Both the position numbers and the translations under genes were made by a program. A model generated the notes under the pieces. The model was not told where the DNA came from and did no database searches. It was given only the letters and a program-made list of their open reading frames with translations. DNA of 24,107 nt from a virus. Below, in pieces: positions 1 to 15,261 of the stretch (the first letter of the stretch is position 1; each line of letters starts with the position of its first letter). The stretch lies in the IMG/VR virus record IMGVR_UViG_3300045538_000230, positions 1 to 24,107 of that record; one strand, given 5' to 3'.

Positions 1-2529
1 AGCTTCCCCTTTTTCGGCTTCTATCATTGTTCCCCCTTGTGAGTGTGATTTGCCACCCACATTACCACCAAATCTAAACTTTTGGGATTGTATTTGCGCT
101 ACTTGTGTAGCTGTTTGTGCCCCCATTGCAATAACCTCAGGCAAAGCAAGTAAAAAACCACGTTGCGCAAAAATCTTTGAAATTGCAATAATACCATTCA
201 TTACGGCTTCTCTACTATCCATTTTCTTTTTCTTCTCAAACGCTCTTTTGTCAATTTCCAAACGCTTTTTTTCGAACTCCTCAGCCGTTATTTCCCCAGC
301 TTGTCGCCTTAATGTTAAGGCTTCAATCTCGCGTTTTGTTGTTCGCTCTATTCTGTTTTTTTCGTTAGTGAATAATGTACCCTGAAGCTTTTCAGCGCTT
401 TGAATGGCATTACTTCTAAACGCTTCTTGTTGTGATTTAAGCGCGTTTGCTTGGTCTTCTTGTGCCTTTTTTCGGCTTTCAGCTAAGTATTCATTTTGCG
501 TAGCTTCACTCTCTAAAATAGCAAGTTGATAATCTCGGTTTAAATCCAAAAACTTTTCGTTTTCTAAAACTTGCAACTCTGCTTTTAATTTAGTAGTATC
601 TTTTTTTGCTAATTCTTCATTTTTTATTTGCTCTTTTATAAAGCTAACATTTAAATCCCTTTCTTTTTGCGCTAATTCCAACGACAATTTAAACATATTT
701 TCTTTATGTTTACGCTCCATTTCAAACTCTTCCGCCTTAGTACCCGCAAAAAGTAACTTCTCTTTTTTCTGCTCAAATTCTAAATCCCTAATTTTCTGCT
801 CAGCAACCGCCTTGCTTCTTTCTATTTCCGTTTTTGCTGTTTCTTCTGCTAGTTTTCGCGCTTCTTCATCGGCTTTTGCTTTATCCTCAGCTAACTTTTT
901 TTGCGCCTCGGCTTGTTTTGTAACCGCTTCTTTTTCCATTGCGTTTAACTTGTTTCGCACCTCGATTTGGCGACCAGTTAAACCAGCTAGTTTCTCCATG
1001 CTTTCAGCTTCTAAATCGTACCGCTCTTGTTTTTGTTCGTCGCTTGTATCGTTGGCTTCCTCTTCAAGTTTCATTAATTTAACTTTCATGTTAGTTATAT
1101 CAATCTCCCTTTTTCCACTTTCTGTTATTAGCCTTAAATACTCCTTACCCGCCTTATTTCTTTCAGCCATACTTTTGGTTTCATCTTCCAAAATAAACTT
1201 CATTTTTTCAGCTAGTAAGTTATTTTGCGCCATATCGCGCTTATAAGTCATTTCGCTTTGTCGGATTTTCTCCGTTAAGGCTTGTATTTGTTTACCTCTT
1301 TCAATCGCAACTTTTGACCCTTTAACGGCATCGTTAACCATTCCTTTTAACTTATCTGTTCCATTGGCAATTCCTGTATTAACAGCTATAAAACCGTCCG
1401 CCATATCCTTAACACCTTTCTTAACACTATCCTTTGCTTTTTCAATATCCGCGTCTAATTTTTTTAAAGCATCTTTGCCCAAACCAGCACCGATAAATGG
1501 AATATCATTCGTGGCCTTTTTAATGTTTAATCCTAATACCTTCCAGCTATTAACGAATACACCCGCCCAACCTTTGAAAAATTGAATTAAACCGTTAAAT
1601 CTGTTGGTTACATTTGTTTTTATAAAGTCTAGTAAGTCGCTAAACGCTTGTTTTGGATTGTCAATGGCTTGTTTTAAACGGTCAAATATTGCCAAAGCTT
1701 TCGTTTGTAGAAAACCCACCAACGTGGCAAAAACTTCTTTAAGTGGTGTAAGCACCTTGTTTACAGCGTCAATTCCCCTTTGAGTAGATAGAAATGCACC
1801 GATTAACGAACCTAAAGCAACTACTATTGCCCCCACCCCTGTTGAAATCAAAGCAATTTTGAATATTTTTAAAGCGTTTGACCCTCCACTTGTTGCAACT
1901 GCATACCCTTTCATCGCAGTGCCAGCACCTGTTAACGCTGTTTTGATTTGGTTTAGTTGCCCCATTACACCCTGTATTTGTCCGCCTAATCCACCCATAA
2001 CAGGCAACAAACTATTAACAGCATCTTGATAACTACCTACCATTACTTGAGTGTTGCCGATTGAAACGTGTAGCTCCTTGTATTCAGCGTCCAAATCTTG
2101 AATATGCTTTAATAATTCTTGACCTTTTGCGCTGTTCCGCTCCTCCGCCGACAAATTTTTATAATCGTTTTTCGCTTTAGATAGTTGTGCACTTAATTGG
2201 TTTATGCTTCCTGTTGCTTTATCCGTTGCCTTTACATTAGCCATTACAGTAGCTTCTTGCAATCGCATAGCTTCACGAACTTTTTTCGTGTTGCTTTCAA
2301 CTTGGACCTGTTGTGTAATATTAAGCTTTACTGCTTCGTTGTATTGCTCCTGAGTAATAGTCCCCTCCTCTAGTTGTTTTGCTAGGTTTTTTTCTAAATC
2401 AATTTGTTCCTTTTTTAATCTTTTTTGCTCCTTTCCCAAATCAGCCAACACCCTTTTTTGTTCTACAAGTGTTTTTATATTTTCATCCGCTCCGTCTAAT
2501 CGTATAGAGTAAATTAATTCGTTTTCCAT
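1..2529 (-). CDS. Tail tape measure protein (5' 843 codons, cut by window edge)
   Basis: The frame is open from an ATG at 2529 to the window edge with no stop, giving 843 visible residues that start MENELIYSIRLDGADENIK. Charged K/E-rich coiled-coil stretches lie at roughly residues 20-60 and 430-760. A hydrophobic segment (ALISTGVGAIVVALGSLIGA) lies near residues 218-248, typical of tape measure proteins that enter the host envelope. Near residue 820 is the glycine-rich GGNVGGKSHSQGGTMIEAEKG motif, which I recognise from tape measure and related tail proteins of Bacteroidota phages. The tape measure sets tail length and is ejected with the DNA. It lies 18 bp downstream of the 769-aa tail protein and is the last visible gene of the late operon. 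The C-terminus lies outside the window, so full length and any lytic domain are unknown. Confidence 0.88.
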   Translation of the reverse strand, partial: MENELIYSIRLDGADENIKTLVEQKRVLADLGKEQKRLKKEQIDLEKNLAKQLEEGTITQEQYNEAVKLNITQQVQVESNTKKVREAMRLQEATVMANVKATDKATGSINQLSAQLSKAKNDYKNLSAEERNSAKGQELLKHIQDLDAEYKELHVSIGNTQVMVGSYQDAVNSLLPVMGGLGGQIQGVMGQLNQIKTALTGAGTAMKGYAVATSGGSNALKIFKIALISTGVGAIVVALGSLIGAFLSTQRGIDAVNKVLTPLKEVFATLVGFLQTKALAIFDRLKQAIDNPKQAFSDLLDFIKTNVTNRFNGLIQFFKGWAGVFVNSWKVLGLNIKKATNDIPFIGAGLGKDALKKLDADIEKAKDSVKKGVKDMADGFIAVNTGIANGTDKLKGMVNDAVKGSKVAIERGKQIQALTEKIRQSEMTYKRDMAQNNLLAEKMKFILEDETKSMAERNKAGKEYLRLITESGKREIDITNMKVKLMKLEEEANDTSDEQKQERYDLEAESMEKLAGLTGRQIEVRNKLNAMEKEAVTKQAEAQKKLAEDKAKADEEARKLAEETAKTEIERSKAVAEQKIRDLEFEQKKEKLLFAGTKAEEFEMERKHKENMFKLSLELAQKERDLNVSFIKEQIKNEELAKKDTTKLKAELQVLENEKFLDLNRDYQLAILESEATQNEYLAESRKKAQEDQANALKSQQEAFRSNAIQSAEKLQGTLFTNEKNRIERTTKREIEALTLRRQAGEITAEEFEKKRLEIDKRAFEKKKKMDSREAVMNGIIAISKIFAQRGFLLALPEVIAMGAQTATQVAQIQSQKFRFGGNVGGKSHSQGGTMIEAEKGEA

Positions 2530-2547: not shown

Positions 2548-4857
2548 TTAGTCGTAAAGCAAAGTTAGTAAATTTCCGTTATCGTCTTCATCAAGTACGT
2601 TAATTAATTGTCCTGTTTCAGTTTCGTAAAGCACGTAGTTAGGCGGTGCAATTTGTTGCTGTTGCTTGTTTGGGTTTATATTCGTTGCTTGGCTCGGGTC
2701 TATGGTAATTGGTGCATAGTCTTTATAGTATAGTAATTCGGCAGAAACCAAACTATCATTCATCAAATTAGCTTCCAAACTCATTACTATATAATACCCT
2801 TTAATTTGTTGAGGTGCATCGATATAAACAGGCTTTGAAAAATCAAAACTACGCAAATCAATTTTGTTCAAATTCACGTTTACTTTAAGCGTAACAGCAT
2901 TAATTAAATTGCTCAAAGTCTTACTCCAAAACTTATCAATAAGTCCGCTAGTACCGTTAAATGTCAACTTTGTCGCGGTGCTCTCAAATGGTGCAACACC
3001 GTTAAACGCTTCCATTAGGAAAACATCATTTGCAAACCAACCTATTCGCGGGGCATATCTGTTATTCGGTGTTGGCTGTTCGGCATCTAATCCGTTTAAG
3101 GGCGAATATTCAGCGCGTATAATTGATGTAACTGTTTGGCTATTTCCACTTTCGCCCTGTATAGTAGGTGCTAACAATGTAGTTTCAAAAACAGTTTCGC
3201 CGTTTGGAAATCTTTTTAAGTCTGCGCTTAAAGGCTCTGGTTTATTTAAATCCGTACGATATTCCGCATAGGTTCTATTATTGTTGCGTTCCCATTGTTC
3301 AAGCCATTTATCATCGCTATCTTTTTTGTAACGATAAATCAATGTACGATTATAAGGCAACTCGGTATGTATTTCTGGCGCGAAATTTAAATCTATTAAA
3401 TTAGTCCAATTTGTAGCCAAACCTACACTTTGGTAATATCCGTTTACATCCTCAAAATCTGCATCCTTCCAATCATTTCGAGGCTCTATCTTTACAACTT
3501 TTGTTTTTATATTCGCATCAAAGTACAAATTAAATAGCAACTTTAAATCACTTATCAATTCAAAAGCTTTCATGTCTTTTGGAATTACACTACTGATTTG
3601 GTACTGGTCGCCCTCTTCTATCTTTGATTTTCTTTGAATTTGGAAAGTGTTTGGAATTTGCCAAAATTCAAACCAATAAGGGTCGTTAATAATGTTGCTT
3701 CTATCTGTACCGTCTAACAATTTACCGTCCCAAACTAATCTAAATTTTACTTTGTCGTTTTCCTCTAAAAAAGCGTTTAAAGTTACGCGCATTCCACTAA
3801 CATAAGTTAAATTATTTACTGGCTGTTTGTCTGCAATATCCCATAATGAAATAAAAGGCTCTCCGTTATCTTTTCTTAACTCAATATTAATTTCGGGACG
3901 GTAGTTTTTCCATTCAGTAGATGTACCAAAATTCGCACTTGTAACAGAAGAATTAGAAAAATTAAAAATAAAAGTGTAATACCCTTTTTTTGGTGCAATA
4001 TACCCAACATTTGGCGCAAACAAATCGTTTTCATCTTCTACTTTCAAAGCATAAGAACTTGTTATATCTGTAGTTACCCTTTTACTTGTACTTGGATAGG
4101 CTTCTTTGAATAACATAAAACCTGTACCATTTGTAGCTGTATTTCTACGCCACTTTGCTATTGTATCGCTTATATCTATATCATCAAACTCATAATTACA
4201 TCCCAAATCAACCGCTAACCCTTTGTTGTTGCTATCACTTTCGCCCAACACAAATTTACTGTTTAAAAAGTCGCTTTCAATCGTGTAACCTATATTTTCA
4301 TGTCCGAAAAAACGTTCAAAGATACTTTTAACGTAAAATACAGGGCGCGAATTAAGTAAATCCGTTGGCAAAGTATTACGGTCAACTATTGGAAAAGCAT
4401 AATCTTTATTCGTTGCGTTTCCTCCGTTTTGCGTGTTAATAGTTGCTAAATCGTACGTTGTAATATCAGGCGAAAAACCTAAATCCTTAACCAATAACTC
4501 ATTCCCAAGCTCCACCCATTCAGCATTACCCCCGAAAAAGTTGCAAACATACTTATCTAAATATTTAGAAATTTTAACTTCAACAAATCCGCGTTCATAT
4601 TCTGCTCCATTCAATAATATAACAGCATCTTGTTTTCCTAAAATAGCTTTATCCGTTGCGTTCACATATTCTGCACCAAACAATATTTTATTGTTATTCG
4701 TGTTATTTGGAATTTCAAAATCGTAACTAAATGTACTATCCCTTGCTGAAATATCCGATATGTTAGCAATCGATTTATTTATTACCAAAGGAAAATTAGT
4801 TTGTTCTAACAAATCTAAATATCCCTTACCTATTATGTAAATTTGTATCTCGTTCAT
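2548..4857 (-). CDS. Large phage tail/baseplate-associated structural protein
   Basis: 769 aa, ATG start overlapping the upstream stop (TAATG junction). The N-terminal 60 residues contain the pattern ISARDSTFSYDFEIPNN followed by NNKILFG, which resembles the start of large tail proteins seen in many Bacteroidota siphophages and prophages, usually annotated as hypothetical. The rest is beta-rich, with many aromatic and Asn residues and no enzymatic motif that I can see. The C-terminus has a Gln-rich linker (NKQQQQIAPP) followed by a short acidic tail. Position just before the tape measure gene and after the neck/tail completion genes supports a structural role in the tail or baseplate, possibly with carbohydrate-binding-like domains. 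The exact role (distal tail, hub or receptor binding) is inference. Confidence 0.6.
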   Translation of the reverse strand: MNEIQIYIIGKGYLDLLEQTNFPLVINKSIANISDISARDSTFSYDFEIPNNTNNNKILFGAEYVNATDKAILGKQDAVILLNGAEYERGFVEVKISKYLDKYVCNFFGGNAEWVELGNELLVKDLGFSPDITTYDLATINTQNGGNATNKDYAFPIVDRNTLPTDLLNSRPVFYVKSIFERFFGHENIGYTIESDFLNSKFVLGESDSNNKGLAVDLGCNYEFDDIDISDTIAKWRRNTATNGTGFMLFKEAYPSTSKRVTTDITSSYALKVEDENDLFAPNVGYIAPKKGYYTFIFNFSNSSVTSANFGTSTEWKNYRPEINIELRKDNGEPFISLWDIADKQPVNNLTYVSGMRVTLNAFLEENDKVKFRLVWDGKLLDGTDRSNIINDPYWFEFWQIPNTFQIQRKSKIEEGDQYQISSVIPKDMKAFELISDLKLLFNLYFDANIKTKVVKIEPRNDWKDADFEDVNGYYQSVGLATNWTNLIDLNFAPEIHTELPYNRTLIYRYKKDSDDKWLEQWERNNNRTYAEYRTDLNKPEPLSADLKRFPNGETVFETTLLAPTIQGESGNSQTVTSIIRAEYSPLNGLDAEQPTPNNRYAPRIGWFANDVFLMEAFNGVAPFESTATKLTFNGTSGLIDKFWSKTLSNLINAVTLKVNVNLNKIDLRSFDFSKPVYIDAPQQIKGYYIVMSLEANLMNDSLVSAELLYYKDYAPITIDPSQATNINPNKQQQQIAPPNYVLYETETGQLINVLDEDDNGNLLTLLYD

Positions 4858-5987
4858 TACACTACATTTATACGTTTATTTGCCAACACTAAATCAAAAG
4901 TAATACGATTGATAGGCTCGTGATAATTAAAGTTATCTACGCTCGGATTTTCTACTATTACAGGCACTAAAGCATCGTTAACCTTTATGGCTACTTGTGG
5001 ACTTAATGCAATAGAATTTAAAAACTTTATCGTTTCCATACTTTCGTAATCGCTCCAAACCCTAAAACGACGCACACTTTCAACTTTGTAATTATCTTGA
5101 CCTCTATCCAATGCACTAGGGTTTACAGGTCTATTTTTTAAAAAGCTTTTTTTGTCGATTTGGGTGCTATCGGAATAGTTTGTATCAAATAGCCATGTTT
5201 CCATTACACCAAATTGGTTAACCCAAAACAACTCCAAATAGTTACAAGGTGTATCAACTACTTCAAAGCTGTAAATCTTGCTACGATAAGTTTTTGAAAA
5301 ACCAGCGCCCCCTCCGTTATCGGCTAAAAAAATAAAAAACTTCGTAGCTAAACCGCCAAATTGATATACTAAACTGCTTCCATACACAACAGTGCTTATA
5401 TTCGTTCCAACAGGAGTTATAGACTGCTCACCAATTATATTCAAATCATCATCAGTAGAAATAACTATCCAACGCTGTGAAGTTGTTGTAATTAATGAAG
5501 AAATACAACCGTAACCATTTCTAATAGCCTTTCTAGGGTTTGCGTAGTCTGTTAATAGCAACCTTGTATTGTCGCCTGTACCGTTATTGGTATAGTTAGA
5601 TAAGTTAAGTGTTGTAAATTCATCTTGTGAAATATTATAAGCAATAGTAGAACCTCCACCGCCAACAACTTCGCCCGAAATTGTTGTTCCATTTGCGTCC
5701 GTGCCATAAAATCCAAAGCCATAAATAAGGCTGTTATCACTTGCAACACTTGCCCCCGTTAATGGTAGTAGTTTGCTTTTTAAATAATTCCTTAAAATAG
5801 TGTTTATTTCAAAAGTAAATGTATCACTTGTTCCTAAATCGGGTAATTGTGAAACGTGAATATACTCGCTCCCTATTTGAATTTCTAGTTTACATTCTAT
5901 CACAAGCGCGTTATCTGTTGTAACTTGCACCGCTCGTTTTTCTGTTACTAATTGGCTGCCAAAAGCACCCACATACGTTAATGGCAT
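4857..5987 (-). CDS. Phage tail structural protein, unknown role
   Basis: 376 aa, ATG at 5987, stop TAA at 4859-4857 overlapping the next ATG by one base, so the two genes are translationally coupled. It is rich in beta-prone segments, Thr, Asn and Gly, with Gly-rich loops (VVGGGGSTIAYN, ADNGGGAGFSK). The C-terminal third (KVESVRRFRVWSDYESM ... NRITFDLVLANKRINVV) looks like a compact beta domain. No signal peptide or catalytic motif is visible. I do not recognise a named family. Its place between tail completion genes and the large tail protein suggests a tail tube, distal tail or baseplate component. The pairing with the following 769-aa gene is tight enough to suggest that the two proteins work together. 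Confidence 0.55.
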   Translation of the reverse strand: MPLTYVGAFGSQLVTEKRAVQVTTDNALVIECKLEIQIGSEYIHVSQLPDLGTSDTFTFEINTILRNYLKSKLLPLTGASVASDNSLIYGFGFYGTDANGTTISGEVVGGGGSTIAYNISQDEFTTLNLSNYTNNGTGDNTRLLLTDYANPRKAIRNGYGCISSLITTTSQRWIVISTDDDLNIIGEQSITPVGTNISTVVYGSSLVYQFGGLATKFFIFLADNGGGAGFSKTYRSKIYSFEVVDTPCNYLELFWVNQFGVMETWLFDTNYSDSTQIDKKSFLKNRPVNPSALDRGQDNYKVESVRRFRVWSDYESMETIKFLNSIALSPQVAIKVNDALVPVIVENPSVDNFNYHEPINRITFDLVLANKRINVV

Positions 5988-5991
5988 ATCT

Positions 5992-6495
5992 TTATTTTTT
6001 ATTGTTAAAATATAATCTTCTTGCTTCTTGCATCATGTCTTCAAATTGCCCCACTATCATACTACCCATTACGTCCGAAATCTTATCGAAAATAGCTTTT
6101 TCGTTTTCGCTTATGGCATAGGTAATAAATTTATCTCTTCTTCCATTGCTTGTAAACTCAGGGCTTAAACTGTTTGGTGTTGGACTTCCATGCTGAAAAA
6201 TTGCATTTTGTATAGCAAATGCAACATTTTTTACCTCTTTATCTCCACTTGCAATCCCTCTTTGTTCTACCCACGTAATCAAAGCATCAATCGGAATACG
6301 TTTAGCTTTTTTTTCGCGCCCACTTTCAACCCATTTCGCATAGTCAACACCGTAAATATTAATCTTATTACCCTCTAATTTCCACGTTAAACTATCTTCT
6401 AACTTACCTGTATTGCTATGTCCTTGCGCCACAAACTCAGCCTTTATAAAGTCAATCACAAATAAAGCAATTAACTCCGCGCTTTTATTCTCCAT
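5992..6495 (-). CDS. HK97 gp10-like head-tail/tail completion protein
   Basis: 167 aa from the ATG at 6495; the two extra upstream codons start at a TTG and were not used. AGGGGAG about 7 bases upstream of this ATG could serve as a Shine-Dalgarno site, rare in this phylum. Features resemble the gp10-like tail completion group: a short N-terminal helix, the segment NIYGVDYAKWVESGRE, a central helix with VKNVAFAIQNAIFQHGSPTPNS, and SNGRRDKFITYA near the C-terminus. Such proteins sit at the head-tail joint or the top of the tail tube. The start overlaps the end of the upstream 156-aa gene by 11 bases, and 4 bases separate its stop from the next ATG. The family call rests on pattern and position only. 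Confidence 0.5.
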   Translation of the reverse strand: MENKSAELIALFVIDFIKAEFVAQGHSNTGKLEDSLTWKLEGNKINIYGVDYAKWVESGREKKAKRIPIDALITWVEQRGIASGDKEVKNVAFAIQNAIFQHGSPTPNSLSPEFTSNGRRDKFITYAISENEKAIFDKISDVMGSMIVGQFEDMMQEARRLYFNNKK

Positions 6496-6955
6496 ATTCA
6501 AACTCCCCTAAAGTACAAGTGTTTGCAGTAACAACCGTTAAATTCGCTGTAACTTGCTCAAATTTGCCATTCATTGCACGTTTGGCAAGAAATCCACCGC
6601 TAATCTCTATATTATACCCCAATTCATGCAACGCTTTGCGCTTTACCTCAGCCATGTATCTATCCATAATGTTTTTTAAAGTCTGCTGTTTAACAGGTCT
6701 TGCAGTAGTTCCGCGCTCTTCCATGTTGTAAACATCATACAAAAATACTCTCAAAGTCCAACGTGTTTGGTTTTGCATTCCGTTTTCTCTGTAATTACCT
6801 ACATTTTGATAGTCGGGTGTATCAGCTACTAATACGTGTGGGTATAGCCTACTAGGTGCACCGTTCATTTCAAACGGACTTTCGTAAGAAAACGAATTTA
6901 CAGCGGTGTAAGCCGTTGCAACCTCTTCCATTAATGTTATAATCGTATCAATCAT
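6485..6955 (-). CDS. Phage head-tail connector / minor structural protein
   Basis: 156 aa, ATG at 6955. It begins with a helix (MIDTIITLMEEVATAYTAV), followed by FEMNGAPSRLYPHVLVADTPDY, a mixed region with RWTLRVFLYDVYN, a helix (KQQTLKNIMDRYMAEVKRKA) and a C-terminal strand region FEQVTANLTVVTANTC. This layout and the position between neck and tail genes fit a small structural protein of the head-tail interface. I do not recognise a named family. Its ATG overlaps the TGA that ends the -1 frame extension of the upstream gene (TGA at 6950-6948), which couples it to that reading frame rather than to the zero frame, whose stop lies about 80 bases upstream. Confidence 0.5.
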   Translation of the reverse strand: MIDTIITLMEEVATAYTAVNSFSYESPFEMNGAPSRLYPHVLVADTPDYQNVGNYRENGMQNQTRWTLRVFLYDVYNMEERGTTARPVKQQTLKNIMDRYMAEVKRKALHELGYNIEISGGFLAKRAMNGKFEQVTANLTVVTANTCTLGEFEYGE

Positions 6956-7178
6956 TTTTATACATTTTTAGTTTTGCTAACTTTACATTCAAGTAGTCCA
7001 ATATTGTTAAACAATTTTCTTCTAATACACTTTCTAAAGGTGTTTTGCCATTCGCATTATAAACTGCATCACTTGCGACTTCGTAACCAAATGCAATCCA
7101 AAAATTTTGCTCGACAATGGAGCTAAACTCTTTTCTAACTTTTCCACCACTTGCATCTTCATTTCTGAAAATTCCGAT
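6948..7178 (-). CDS. -1 frame extension of the 7747 gene (second half of the frameshifted product)
   Basis: In the -1 frame relative to the 7747 start, codons from 7178 to 6951 are all sense, and a TGA follows at 6950-6948. They encode about 76 residues including EQNFWIAFGYEVASDAVYNA, then NGKTPLESVLEENCLTILDY and LNVKLAKLKMYKND. This looks like a genuine folded domain, and there is no start codon suited to independent translation at its beginning. The fused product would be about 266 aa. The extension ends inside the ATG of the next gene, the tight spacing seen across this operon; without it there would be an unusual gap of 78 bases. The alternative is a real frameshift mutation or a missing T in the nearby T9 run (7223-7215). 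Confidence 0.72.
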   Translation of the reverse strand: MGIFRNEDASGGKVRKEFSSIVEQNFWIAFGYEVASDAVYNANGKTPLESVLEENCLTILDYLNVKLAKLKMYKND

Positions 7179-7747
7179 AAAAAACTTTGAAATCTGTTCA
7201 AGTCCTTTTGAAACAAAAAAAAACCGCTGAATGCTTCCAACAAATTTAAATTCATAAAAAGTTTGGTTCGTTCCTCTATTCCTTTATCCGAAAAATCCGG
7301 GCCATACAAAACCGCGTTTAAACTTGCTAAGGCAGTAGCATCGGTTTGCTTTGCTTTGCTAATTATATCGTGCATTTGCCCCATTAAAGCAAATTGTTTA
7401 TAATTATTGTTGCCTAACCAAACGCGCATTCCTGACAATGTTTGCAACTCTTTGCGTTTTTCGTACTTTTTACCCTCAATTTTAACAAAATCTTGCTCCA
7501 AATAGGTATCAGGAACGCGCAAACCTAGCACCGATAACTCACAAATGGGGACTAAATCCTTTTCTAAATCCAATCTTTCGAGGATATCCAAAGGCATATC
7601 GGACGCTTTTAATAGGTATTCAATACACCATTTAAAGGAATAATCGCATTTAGGTAGTAATTGATTTGCCCAAATTAAATCTTTTACCTTAAATTCCTGT
7701 AAAGTAGTGCGTACATTGTACGACTTACCAGCTACGACTATTCGCAT
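7034..7747 (-). CDS. Zero-frame product of a probable -1 frameshift gene (tail-assembly-chaperone-like candidate)
   Basis: 237 aa from the ATG at 7747, preceded by GGGGGGAAAT, a possible Shine-Dalgarno site; the longer version starting at GTG 7759 is less likely. The N-terminus (MRIVVAGKSYNVRTTLQEFKV) is followed by a helical body with DMPLDILERLDLEKD and TLSGMRVWLGNNNYKQFA. The start overlaps the end of the glycosyltransferase gene by 10 bases. The last ~47 residues of this frame look unlike a natural C-terminus, while the -1 frame is open and protein-like over the same DNA. A T_TTT_TTA heptamer at 7184-7178 sits in the right phase. A two-product gene in the morphogenesis cluster recalls lambda G/GT tail chaperones, but it is not directly before the tape measure gene, so that role is inference. 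Confidence 0.7.
   Translation of the reverse strand: MRIVVAGKSYNVRTTLQEFKVKDLIWANQLLPKCDYSFKWCIEYLLKASDMPLDILERLDLEKDLVPICELSVLGLRVPDTYLEQDFVKIEGKKYEKRKELQTLSGMRVWLGNNNYKQFALMGQMHDIISKAKQTDATALASLNAVLYGPDFSDKGIEERTKLFMNLNLLEAFSGFFLFQKDLNRFQSFLSEFSEMKMQVVEKLEKSLAPLSSKIFGLHLVTKSQVMQFIMRMAKHL
7178..7184 (-). promoter_or_regulatory. Candidate -1 programmed frameshift slippery heptamer T_TTT_TTA
   Basis: On the minus strand 7184-7178 reads TTTTTTA with zero-frame codons TTT (7183-7181) and TTA (7180-7178), an X_XXY_YYZ slippery site of the same sequence as the HIV-1 gag-pol site. A second in-phase site, T_TTT_TTT, lies upstream in a nine-T run at 7223-7215. The -1 frame is open from before both sites. 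I see no strong downstream hairpin; only a weak GCTC...GAGC pairing about 50 bases downstream. Confidence 0.6.
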
Positions 7748-8562
7748 ATTTCCCCCCACCCTTTTTTAACAAATACCTCAGCTTTTAATTTATCTATGTA
7801 AAAAGTTTTAGTGCCTAATGTTGCTTCTTTGCCATTTCCAATAAATTTTACTTTATCACTTTTTACCGCTTTCGGTGTAAATGTTAAATTTTCTACTTTT
7901 GTTGCAACTTCTTTATTTAATTTCTTTGCCATAATTTCATTATTAATTTGGTTTCCTACAAAGATAATGTTTTTACTCGAAATATTATAGTCGTGCTTTA
8001 TATCAATTAAAAAACCATTGATTTTATCTAATTGTATTCGCTCAAATTCTACATCTAAGCCACGCAAATACTTTTCACTATTATTATCACAACCTTTATT
8101 TAATTTGCTAGTCCACGCTTTAAAATTACATTTATCAAGTACGCTTTTCGGGTAATACCTACCAGCACCGAAATGTTTATCTAGGTGTAAATAGCTTGTT
8201 ATTTTATGTTGTGTTGAATAGAAGTAAATATCAGCAAATCCCATTACTTTATTGGTATCTAGTGAGTAATACCATTGTATAACATTTTCGCAAATTAAAT
8301 CATCGCTACCTAACAATACAACAGCATCAGGTTTAAACTCCTTTGCTTTTAACATCATAGCGTTGTTTTTAGCTGTTAGTGGATTGTTTTCGGTTTCAAT
8401 GTACACCAATCCTTTTGCTAAATCCTTACTTATTTGTCCCTCACTACCAGCCACAACAACAGTAAAGCCGTACTTTTTACTTAGCTTTCGATAGTAATCC
8501 AATACGATTTTAGTTAAATCGTGCCTTTGATAGATAGCAATTATAAAAACAAGTTTCTTCAT
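7738..8562 (-). CDS. GT-A-like glycosyltransferase with small head-type C-terminal domain
   Basis: 274 aa from the ATG at 8562 (MKKLVFIIAIYQRHDLTK). A longer frame starting at 8592 would begin inside the MCP terminator and is rejected. Residues 1-130 look like a GT2/GT-A nucleotide-sugar transferase: strand VFIIAIYQR, helix, VVVAGSEG, TENNPLTAKNNAMMLKA around 57-73, and VVLLGSDDLI at 81-90, whose SDD fits the metal-binding DXD motif. GAGRYYPKSV at 132-141 fits an acceptor-side region. The last ~40 residues (KVKFIGNGKEATLGTKTFYI ... FVKKGWGEI) resemble small phage proteins often encoded right after the MCP. It could glycosylate a virion protein or host surface, which is inference. It follows a terminator, so expression should be below that of the capsid gene. 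Confidence 0.68.
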   Translation of the reverse strand: MKKLVFIIAIYQRHDLTKIVLDYYRKLSKKYGFTVVVAGSEGQISKDLAKGLVYIETENNPLTAKNNAMMLKAKEFKPDAVVLLGSDDLICENVIQWYYSLDTNKVMGFADIYFYSTQHKITSYLHLDKHFGAGRYYPKSVLDKCNFKAWTSKLNKGCDNNSEKYLRGLDVEFERIQLDKINGFLIDIKHDYNISSKNIIFVGNQINNEIMAKKLNKEVATKVENLTFTPKAVKSDKVKFIGNGKEATLGTKTFYIDKLKAEVFVKKGWGEICE

Positions 8563-8632: not shown

Positions 8633-9913
8633 TTAGGTTGTTTCTAAACTTGCAATAGCAGTTGAGAATGTTCCTTTTACAAATGCTGTCCTGTCGTTAG
8701 TCTTAACAACAACCGCACCCCTCCACTCTGCACGTAAAGTAACAAAGTTTTTAGTGAAGTCATCATTTTCGTAACCTAAGTCATACTTAACACCGTCTTT
8801 CTCAACTAAGAAAGCTTTGTCGAAGTTACCCATTAAGAAAGCACCCGCTGGTACTAAAGTAGTAGGTACGATTTTAGTCACGCCGTCCAACAATAAAGAA
8901 GAACCAATAGCTTGTAAACGGTCAATGTATCTCTTATCAGTCGCCGTTACTTTAGCAACTTTTAAACTTGCTACATCTCTAGGGTTTAAAAACGCTAAGT
9001 TTGCGCTTCCTTGCTCTGCTAACTCGATTTGTAAGTTACCAGCTACTAATACATCCACTACGTTAGCGTTATCAATCGGAGCATCAAAGTCCGCACCTGT
9101 AATAGCAAATGCAGTAGCAACAGTGTTAACACCACGTAAGTTAGTACCTGTACCGTCACCACTAAATGCAGTACTCTCTACGGCTTTGTACAATTCGCGC
9201 ATCAACTCCGCTTCAATTTCGCTTTGCATCCAATCGATATCATCCAACATTTCGTTAGATACCTTAATGAACGCAGTTGTTTTTTTAACGTTTTCGCTTG
9301 AAACAACTAAATCAAAATCGATTTTGTTTTTCAATAAACCCTCGCCTGTTTGCCCAGCTGTTCCCTCTTGGTTAGCTTGTGCTACCCAGCTAATAACATT
9401 GGAAGAAGTCGCGCGAGTTTGTAAAGCATTTAAAAATTTTGTATCTCTCGATGCAATACCATTTAAACCCTCAATTCTATCCTCAACTGGTACATTTCCA
9501 CCGCTTACATTCGCAAACGTCATATTACCAACAGCTTTAAAGGAAACTCTTCCCTCGCCTTTTTCTTTCAAAGATTTTAAAGCATCTTTGTTAGCTTCTA
9601 AACTTGCTCTTAACTCTTGAGAGAAAGATTTAGCAATTTGATTTACACTTTTCATTTTTTCTAATTTTGTGGAAATTTCCTTAAATCCAACTTCCATTTG
9701 GTTTTTAACAACTTTGATTTCATTTTTTAAGCCTTTGTTCTCTTCCTCTAAATTAGAAGCTAACTTTGCTAACTCTTCTTGGTACATTGCTACAAGTTCA
9801 GCTTGTTGCTCTTCAGGTAATTCATCGAAGTTCTCGATACCTTGCAATACTAAGAATTGCTCTAATGTTGTTTCGGACGTAAAGCCGTCCATTTTTTTAA
9901 CTGATTTTTTCAT
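8633..9913 (-). CDS. HK97-family major capsid protein
   Basis: 426 aa, ATG at 9913, one base after the protease stop. Residues ~30-110 form a charged coiled coil (EEQQAELVAMYQEELAKL ... KEISTKLEKM), like the HK97 delta/scaffold domain that the protease removes. The rest matches the phage_capsid fold: RDTKFLNALQTRATSSNVIS, then KKTTAFIKVSNEMLDDIDWM, ELMRELYKAVESTAFSGDGT, GTNLRGVNTVA, and a C-terminal part with VPAGAFLMGNFDKAFLVEKD and NFVTLRAEWRGAVVVK. These are recognisable HK97 MCP signatures (E-loop/P-domain helix, the FSGDGTGTNLRG stretch and the late GNF...FR-like region). Cleavage probably falls between the coiled coil and GEGRVSFKAV (~residue 120). A terminator follows the gene. Confidence 0.93.
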   Translation of the reverse strand: MKKSVKKMDGFTSETTLEQFLVLQGIENFDELPEEQQAELVAMYQEELAKLASNLEEENKGLKNEIKVVKNQMEVGFKEISTKLEKMKSVNQIAKSFSQELRASLEANKDALKSLKEKGEGRVSFKAVGNMTFANVSGGNVPVEDRIEGLNGIASRDTKFLNALQTRATSSNVISWVAQANQEGTAGQTGEGLLKNKIDFDLVVSSENVKKTTAFIKVSNEMLDDIDWMQSEIEAELMRELYKAVESTAFSGDGTGTNLRGVNTVATAFAITGADFDAPIDNANVVDVLVAGNLQIELAEQGSANLAFLNPRDVASLKVAKVTATDKRYIDRLQAIGSSLLLDGVTKIVPTTLVPAGAFLMGNFDKAFLVEKDGVKYDLGYENDDFTKNFVTLRAEWRGAVVVKTNDRTAFVKGTFSTAIASLETT

Positions 9914-14073: not shown

Positions 14074-14098
14074 ATATTTTCTTTCTATCGTATGCCAT
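14074..14098. repeat. 25-bp direct repeat, copy 2 (TerS-start remnant after the methyltransferase)
   Basis: In the minus sense it forms a TAATG junction with the methyltransferase stop and would encode MAYDRKKILK before a stop, a ten-residue copy of the TerS N-terminus. It is probably a remnant of the original MTase-TerS junction or a duplication made during cassette insertion. Confidence 0.88.
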
Positions 14099-15261
14099 TA
14101 ATCAAATTCTTTAGTTACTACTCCATTTCTTTTTATTGTTAATGTAGGGTCAAGTGCTTTCATTCTCTTAACTATTACATCGCAGTATTTAGGGTCTAGT
14201 TCCATTCCGTAACATTTTCTTTTAAGTTGGTGTGATGCTACCATTGTTGAACCTGAGCCAAGAAAAAAATCTAAAATCAATTCATTTTTATTGGTAATAT
14301 TTTCTATTGCCATTGCTGGTAGTTCAATAGGTTTTTGTGTTGGGTGTAAATAAGTAGAGCTTCCATCTTTACCAATACTCCAAACACTACCAAGTCTTTT
14401 TCCTTTTATTTCTGCACCCCTATGATAAACTAAAGCTATTTCAAAATCAGTTGAAAATGTTTTTTTTAAATCGCCAATACCACCCCCACCTTTATCCCAA
14501 ATAATCATATTAGACAATTCTCCAATAGTTTCGCAAAATTCAATCCACTCTTTTAAAACTTTCCAACTTGTCCAAACAAAAACAAATCCTTTTGAAAATA
14601 GTGGTAAATTATTAATCCATTCAGTTATAAATACATTATCATTTTCTAATACATTAAACTTTTGGCTCTTAGTTCGCATATTTGATTGATAGCTTACTCC
14701 GTAAGGTGGGTCAGTAAATACCATATCCGCCTTTTGCCCATTCATCAACTTTGCCACCGTATCGGAACAGGTACTATCCCCACACAACAACCTATGCTCT
14801 CCAATCTCGTATAAATCCCCCAATACCGTTTTAGGCTCTTCGGGTGGTGTACTATCAAAATCATCCTCTTCGGCTTCAAGTACTTGGTCTGCTTCAAAAT
14901 TAGGCACATCCAAACCCCAAGCATCCAACTGTTCGGTGTCCCATTCATTGGATAACATTTCCCAGTCCCACTCTCCACCGCTTACGTTATCTTTGATTAT
15001 AAATTGCCTTTGTTCATCCTCTGTTAAATCACTTGCTTTGATTATCGGCACTTCTTTTAATCCAGCTTCAATACACGCTTTTAAACGCATATTTCCGCCC
15101 AATACAATCATATCAGCATTAACAACTATTGGTCGAATTTCCAACATTTTAGGAAACTCTTTAATCGAGTTTACCAGCTTTACAAATTTATCATCTTTAA
15201 TAACTCTAGGATTATTCGGATTATTTTTTACTTCAGATATTTTTATTATTTCTGTTTTCAT
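14098..15261 (-). CDS. ParB-like nuclease domain fused to DNA (adenine-N6 or cytosine-N4) methyltransferase
   Basis: 387 aa, ATG at 15261. Residues ~1-95 form a ParB/Srx-like domain (NNPNNPRVIKDD; ADMIVLGGNMRLKACIEAGL; the GGNMR core). An acidic linker at ~125-142 leads to the methyltransferase: GEHRLLCGDST at 154-164, DPPYGVSYQ with motif IV DPPY at 184-187, HPTQKPIELP, and the AdoMet-binding FFLGSGSTMVAS near 332-343. Motif IV before motif I indicates the beta class. Such fusions are common in phages, where they modify phage DNA against host restriction. It is the first gene of the late operon, separated from the upstream nuclease gene by a candidate promoter and a terminator-like hairpin. 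Target sequence and base cannot be read from the protein alone. Confidence 0.9.
   Translation of the reverse strand: MKTEIIKISEVKNNPNNPRVIKDDKFVKLVNSIKEFPKMLEIRPIVVNADMIVLGGNMRLKACIEAGLKEVPIIKASDLTEDEQRQFIIKDNVSGGEWDWEMLSNEWDTEQLDAWGLDVPNFEADQVLEAEEDDFDSTPPEEPKTVLGDLYEIGEHRLLCGDSTCSDTVAKLMNGQKADMVFTDPPYGVSYQSNMRTKSQKFNVLENDNVFITEWINNLPLFSKGFVFVWTSWKVLKEWIEFCETIGELSNMIIWDKGGGGIGDLKKTFSTDFEIALVYHRGAEIKGKRLGSVWSIGKDGSSTYLHPTQKPIELPAMAIENITNKNELILDFFLGSGSTMVASHQLKRKCYGMELDPKYCDVIVKRMKALDPTLTIKRNGVVTKEFD

Follow-up and report, generated by a model that had tools for sequence, protein, structure and literature searches.

Reading Frames and Predicted Products

The stretch of DNA analysed here, referred to as the window, is the linear viral IMG/VR record IMGVR_UViG_3300045538_000230 (24,107 bp), whose minus strand carries, in its head-to-tail gene cluster, a gene with two overlapping reading frames that meet at a run of nine T (T9). 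The zero frame of this frameshift gene runs from an ATG at 7747 to a TAG at 7036–7034, and the -1 frame has no stop between 7283 and a TGA at 6950–6948. The parts of the gene are the following:

7034–7747, minus strand: zero-frame open reading frame of 237 amino acids, the predicted short product, with its final ~60 codons past the slip site; the same open reading frame is found in 15 relatives
7218–7747, minus strand: N-terminal part of 176 codons common to both predicted products; predicted to form a beta-hairpin and, after it, helices
7215–7223, minus strand: T9 slip site (GGT TTT TTT TTG); length of nine T and phase identical in 16 of 16 sequences
6948–7223, minus strand: -1 frame segment of 91 codons plus stop, the C-terminal domain of a predicted 266-residue fusion; ~55% amino acid identity between clades

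The -1 stop overlaps the ATG of the next gene (6955) by eight nucleotides (ATGATTGA), a coupling that takes the form ATGATTGA or ATGATTAA among the relatives, and a gap of 78 bases separates the zero-frame stop from the same gene. These positions, together with the frames, the in-phase T9 and a T_TTT_TTA heptamer at 7184–7178, agree with the original prediction made from the sequence of the window. Past a slip at T9 the message would be read TTT GTT TCA AAA (F V S K), with SGFFFVSK as the trans-frame peptide. The predicted products are a zero-frame protein of 237 residues and a -1 fusion of 266 residues that share 176 residues. The third frame closes within 7–11 codons in every relative.

Conservation of the Two Frames

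Relatives of the gene occur in 15 IMG/VR records in three clades (~53–58% protein identity), giving 16 sequences with the window. A search with the N-terminal part retrieved five near relatives and the record L007 (56% identity), and a search with the -1 domain added a third clade (L014–L022, 52–56% identity). Joining the frames at T9 yields a continuous, alignable protein of 262–266 amino acids in the relatives, L021 lacking the last codons because its contig ends there. Over the same 60 codons, the -1 segment retains 52–60% identity between clades, against 25–36% for the zero-frame tail. That the -1 frame encodes a genuine domain, as had been proposed, is therefore borne out by homologues in three clades. 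Moreover, the changes between close pairs switch frame at the run: upstream of T9 they affect the third codon position of the zero frame (11-3-49 over the three codon positions for the window and L006), and downstream mostly that of the -1 frame (1-0-11 for L014 and L022; 1-0-7 for L016 and L017), a pattern that is likewise seen past the zero-frame stop. Past T9, L014 and L022 differ by one amino acid in the -1 frame and by 11 in the zero frame.

The -1 segment might instead be made as a second, separately initiated protein, through translational coupling or an internal start, with no fusion at all, and the L014 clade does have a -1-frame ATG 20 nucleotides past the slip. However, in the window clade and in L007 no ATG, GTG or TTG occurs in the -1 frame for 197–257 nucleotides past the slip, so that the domain can arise there only as a fusion, and separate initiation was rejected for these two clades. 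In addition, conserved -1 coding begins at T9 itself, and two independent starts would leave the slip run with no reason to be conserved; we consider this explanation highly improbable.

An artefact would be another way to obtain two frames, since homopolymers are error-prone: an error in sequencing or assembly, or decay through a homopolymer indel, could disguise a gene that is in truth single-framed. Nevertheless, all 16 records, from three clades diverged to ~55%, have T9 and none has T8 or T10, the -1 frame is clearly constrained, as is the zero frame upstream, and no continuous-frame or T10 relative was found in IMG/VR, including by a scan of the collection for GGN followed by nine T. This last scan, which addresses T10 versions and other GGN-T9 sites rather than further T9 relatives, gave two matches, both unrelated. 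An error in a T10 single-frame gene was accordingly rejected, and an artefact of any kind is extremely improbable.

The relatives known so far come from IMG/VR. Alignments of the capsid gene and of the 156-residue gene downstream led to no further clade carrying the frameshift gene, and three capsid fragments at 61–66% identity end within the capsid gene. At the sensitivity used, no homologue was found in bacterial genomes or in deposited phages and plasmids; none was found in Flavobacterium phage 11b, Bacteroides phage B124-14 or Riemerella phage RAP44. The signature of a frame shift, its slip site and its conservation are present in all three clades, and a conserved, programmed frame transition at T9 is, judged from these comparisons, almost certainly real.

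The Slip Site

Two further features bear on where the shift takes place:

7207–7228, minus strand: 22-nucleotide block AGCGGTTTTTTTTTGTTTCAAA around T9, identical in representatives of the three clades
7178–7184, minus strand: T_TTT_TTA heptamer, kept in the window's own clade only

The original prediction had placed the slip at the T_TTT_TTA heptamer and had named T9 as a second possibility. Its proposed check, conservation of the heptamer in relatives, gave conservation within the window clade only: the site is altered in L007 and in the L014 clade, and L007 lacks the heptamer even though AGCGGTTTTTTTTTGTTTCAAAAGGACTTGA is identical. The heptamer was thus rejected and, because it varies between clades and T9 is invariant, the slip site is the T9 run, the alternative that all relatives conserve. 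The codon with the first T of the run is AGT in L003 and GGT in the other sequences, and the in-phase heptamers T_TTT_TTT and T_TTT_TTG lie within the run in 16 of 16 sequences. GTTTTTTTTTG occurs exactly once in each of the 15 relative records, at the T9 position. The T9 run is invariant, compared with 30 of 77 identical for codons of conserved residues elsewhere in the frameshift gene, and the 22-nucleotide block is the third-longest exact block among the eight structural genes compared across the three clades.

A second T9 lies ~60 nucleotides past the capsid stop in the L014 clade only (L016:4661, L014:4600 and other members); it is possibly part of a terminator.

Possible Selection on the Zero-Frame Tail

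The zero-frame tail had been described as random in appearance, a description that is too strong in view of several signs of dual coding. The zero frame stays open for 58–61 codons past the slip in each clade, and two of the three share the position of its stop. For a sequence that encodes the -1 protein with the codon usage of the phage, the chance of such openness is 0.018, 0.072 and 0.018 for the three clades, which are related, so that these values are not to be multiplied. Furthermore, each third codon position in the -1 frame is a second position in the zero frame, and these sites change in most close pairs at about half the upstream rate (for example, 5/60 against 49/174 upstream, and 11/60 against 54/174), and in four pairs, which are not independent, the overlap is among the slowest 1–10% of 60-codon stretches of the cluster. 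The 156-residue gene is likewise slow in the window and L006 pair, which weakens the argument from the overlap rate. Taken together, these observations are suggestive, not proof, that the zero-frame tail is also under selection. If so, the C-terminus of the short product would be under selection, in contrast to lambda G with its few residues past the slip.

Slippage by the Ribosome or by RNA Polymerase

Whether the slip would be made by the ribosome or by RNA polymerase is, in our assessment, nearly an even choice, and a T9 with no conserved downstream structure suits either machine. With polymerase slippage, the same gene would give the same two products, RNA polymerase adding one U at T9 and the resulting two mRNA species being translated normally; this is a variant of the programmed frameshift explanation and is compatible with a chaperone role. 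The reported threshold for transcriptional slippage is a homopolymer of eight or nine or more A/T (PMC1088944, PMC3711429), and nine is the length at which avoidance of such slippage shows in many genomes (PMC1088944). The T9 run reaches this length and is the sole A/T run of at least nine in the window, where synonymous shuffling of the genes leads one to expect 3.4 such runs on average and none other is seen. In addition, poly(T) is more slippery than poly(A) for the polymerase of E. coli (PMC6260861). No stable downstream structure common to the clades was found; the consensus fold is weak and consists mostly of U-G and U-A pairs of the T run itself with CAAARGGA. This also speaks for polymerase slippage, although a missing stimulator weighs little as evidence. 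On the other hand, the run holds U_UUU_UUU and U_UUU_UUG in phase, which match the usual ribosomal slip motif and would suit tandem ribosomal slippage, and known tail chaperone cases are reported as ribosomal (PMC5009743). We therefore rate slippage by the polymerase as only a little short of an even chance.

Genes with transcriptional slippage, such as Thermus dnaX (A9), the Shigella type III secretion system, Citrobacter tssM (A11) and some insertion sequence elements, resemble the present one in that an A/T homopolymer of at least nine leads to two protein lengths and such runs are avoided elsewhere in coding regions. They differ in that the gene described here belongs to a phage structural cluster and has a T run, and that its polymerase slip is putative.

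Genomic Context

The frameshift gene is part of the following cluster, given in order along the minus strand:

Minus strand: terminase genes, start of the head-to-tail cluster
Minus strand: portal (phrog_12)
Minus strand: protease (phrog_80)
8633–9913, minus strand: major capsid protein of the HK97 type (phrog_10, E 3e-32)
7738–8562, minus strand: glycosyltransferase-like gene (by eye: GT-A, VLLGSDD motif), overlapping the start of the frameshift gene
6485–6955, minus strand: next gene downstream of the frameshift gene, 156 amino acids; probable tail terminator or completion protein, from its position
5992–6495, minus strand: neck or tail-completion protein (HK97 gp10-like), 167 amino acids, ATG at 6495 (phrog_5, E 3e-5)
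4857–5987, minus strand: structural-cluster protein of 376 amino acids, no assigned function
2548–4857, minus strand: structural-cluster protein of 769 amino acids, no assigned function
1–2529, minus strand: tape measure protein, incomplete at the end of the window; the copy in the relative L061 has 883 amino acids

The glycosyltransferase-like gene has no Pfam or PHROG match and keeps 58–62% identity across the clades, the neck protein has a homologue at the corresponding position in Phocaeicola phage BM127P2 (E 1e-4), and the tape measure was identified through the copy in L061 (phrog_3336, E 5e-22). The order from the capsid gene through the glycosyltransferase-like, frameshift, 156-residue, neck, 376-residue and 769-residue genes is kept as far as the contigs of the relatives extend, and 3' of the 769-residue gene the relatives carry the tape measure, a 193-residue gene, a DUF6712 protein and a fibre-like gene. 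The protein of 192–193 residues directly after the tape measure (L061:8720–9298, L062:10795–11373) has no family match and resembles a tail-tube protein; it is a candidate for the tube subunit, and in this group the tube gene would then lie 3' of the tape measure.

The capsid protein has its best matches in Flavobacterium phages, and the matches to the tape measure are nearly all from phages of Phocaeicola, Bacteroides and Parabacteroides. Because both sets point to phages of Bacteroidota, they support the association with this phylum that had been suggested at the outset, and the phage probably belongs to an uncultivated group of tailed siphophages infecting Bacteroidota.

Other blocks of the cluster are also identical in the three clades. 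In the 3' part of the protease gene (10057–10032, minus strand), the 26-nucleotide block AAATTTATAATAAATTTGGAGATATA is followed by a short variable stretch and then AAATTTTATGAATTTTG; AAATTTATAATAAATTTGGAGATATA is the longest exact block in the eight structural genes and lies ~120 nucleotides upstream of the capsid gene. Together they are possibly a promoter or another cis signal within the protease gene. In the 3' part of the glycosyltransferase-like gene (minus strand), the 24-nucleotide TTTTTTAATTGATATAAAGCACGA (8014–7991) and ATTATCTTTG (~7968–7959), located ~250 nucleotides upstream of the frameshift gene, are conserved in the three clades. ATTATCTTTG contains a match to TAnnTTTG, a motif that is common in the window and hence no evidence alone. 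Upstream of the terminase genes, at 14098–15261 (minus strand), a fusion of a ParB-like protein and a DNA methyltransferase was noted by eye from the translation (NPNNPR, TDPPYG).

A Possible Role in Tail Assembly

In lambda, the tail assembly chaperones G and GT are produced by a -1 frameshift mechanism (PMC5009743), and the present gene may act in a similar manner. The zero frame would mostly be read to give the 237-residue protein; sometimes, one base would be re-read at T9 (7223–7215), or one extra U would be present there in the mRNA, and the -1 frame would give the 266-residue fusion, the last ~88 residues of which would form a separate conserved domain. The short and long proteins would share their N-terminal part and probably require a fixed ratio, with the shared part bound to the tape measure and tail-tube subunits brought in by the -1 domain, as in lambda G/GT. 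We infer that both proteins are made, in such a ratio, and, from the architecture and synteny of the gene, that they serve as chaperones.

As in lambda, there is a short product and a -1-extended fusion with a common N-terminal part, a conserved slip sequence in phase, and a location among the morphogenesis genes, ahead of a long tape measure in the operon. Such a tape measure, which is expected for systems of the lambda G/GT type, is present in this phage group, the syntenic head-to-tail cluster ends in it, and between it and the capsid gene neither a second frameshifted gene nor another candidate for a chaperone is seen. A frame transition in genes of the phage tail cluster is also known from the GeneTack cluster of HK97-like tail chaperones, for which a frameshift efficiency of 6–7% was measured (PMC3711429). 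That cluster has another slip site, and the gene described here has no profile similarity to named chaperone families.

Several observations weigh against a chaperone. No family match was found in PHROGs, Pfam, NCBIfam or PDB sequences, and no named tail chaperone was among the results; hits to PF19215 (coronavirus NSP15) and phrog_16628, at E 0.03–0.07, were dismissed as chance. The AlphaFold models, with a mean predicted local distance difference test score (pLDDT) of 57 for both parts, are of low confidence, predicting the beta-hairpin and helices of the N-terminal part and an all-helical -1 domain, and fold searches with both of these poor models gave no significant match. Judged from the searches, the protein family of the frameshift gene is new. 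In addition, G/GT genes lie between the major tail protein and tape measure genes, directly upstream of the latter, and this gene does not: four genes separate it from the tape measure, compared with none in lambda, and the probable tail-tube gene follows the tape measure, unlike in lambda. The slip site of lambda is G_GGA_AAG, in contrast to T9 here. Finally, the zero frame here extends ~60 codons past the slip rather than stopping soon, and there is no detectable homology to the lambda proteins.

A programmed frameshift gene in this place could instead encode something other than a chaperone, such as a neck or connector protein, a head completion protein or a virion protein of two lengths. 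Consistent with this, the gene stands right after the head genes, ahead of the tail-terminator-like and neck genes and far from the tube candidate, and shows no homology to chaperones. Moreover, Bacteroides phage EMB2 and Phocaeicola phage BM127P2, in a cluster with a related neck protein and tape measure, carry in the matching slot, directly upstream of the tail-terminator-like and gp10-like genes and then of two large proteins and the tape measure, a 200-residue gene. Unlike the frameshift gene, it has a single continuous frame and looks unrelated, a profile comparison with this positional counterpart giving no significant similarity. However, in a phage whose tape measure is long, two product lengths arising from a -1 shift among the morphogenesis genes are the hallmark of G/GT, the cluster has no other chaperone candidate, and the tail genes are rearranged in this group anyway, with the tube candidate after the tape measure. 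A role outside tail chaperoning thus seems somewhat unlikely.

Of the proposal that the gene is a tail chaperone counterpart, the conserved -1 shift has stood, and no sequence or fold match accompanies it. The chaperone role is a best guess from architecture, synteny and the lack of another candidate. Since its position differs from that of the G/GT genes and no homology to them was detected, the gene is described as an analogue of that family and not as a member. With these points weighed, a programmed frameshift gene acting as a lambda G/GT-like pair of tail assembly chaperones is the explanation that we regard as probable. A more specific combination, in which the tail-assembly ratio is set by RNA polymerase slippage at T9 in a new chaperone family, with ~60 dual-coded codons and a maintained C-terminus in the short form, appears unlikely as a whole.

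Implications

The gene would provide a candidate frameshift chaperone family for a group of siphophages in which homology had revealed no chaperone, at an unusual place in the gene order. Having no conserved stimulator, the T9 run offers a clean and small test case for polymerase against ribosomal slippage in fixing a phage protein ratio and, given the long dual-coded overlap, the short product may have its own selected C-terminus. In every member of the group, the conserved C-terminal domain will escape annotation pipelines that assign one frame to each gene.
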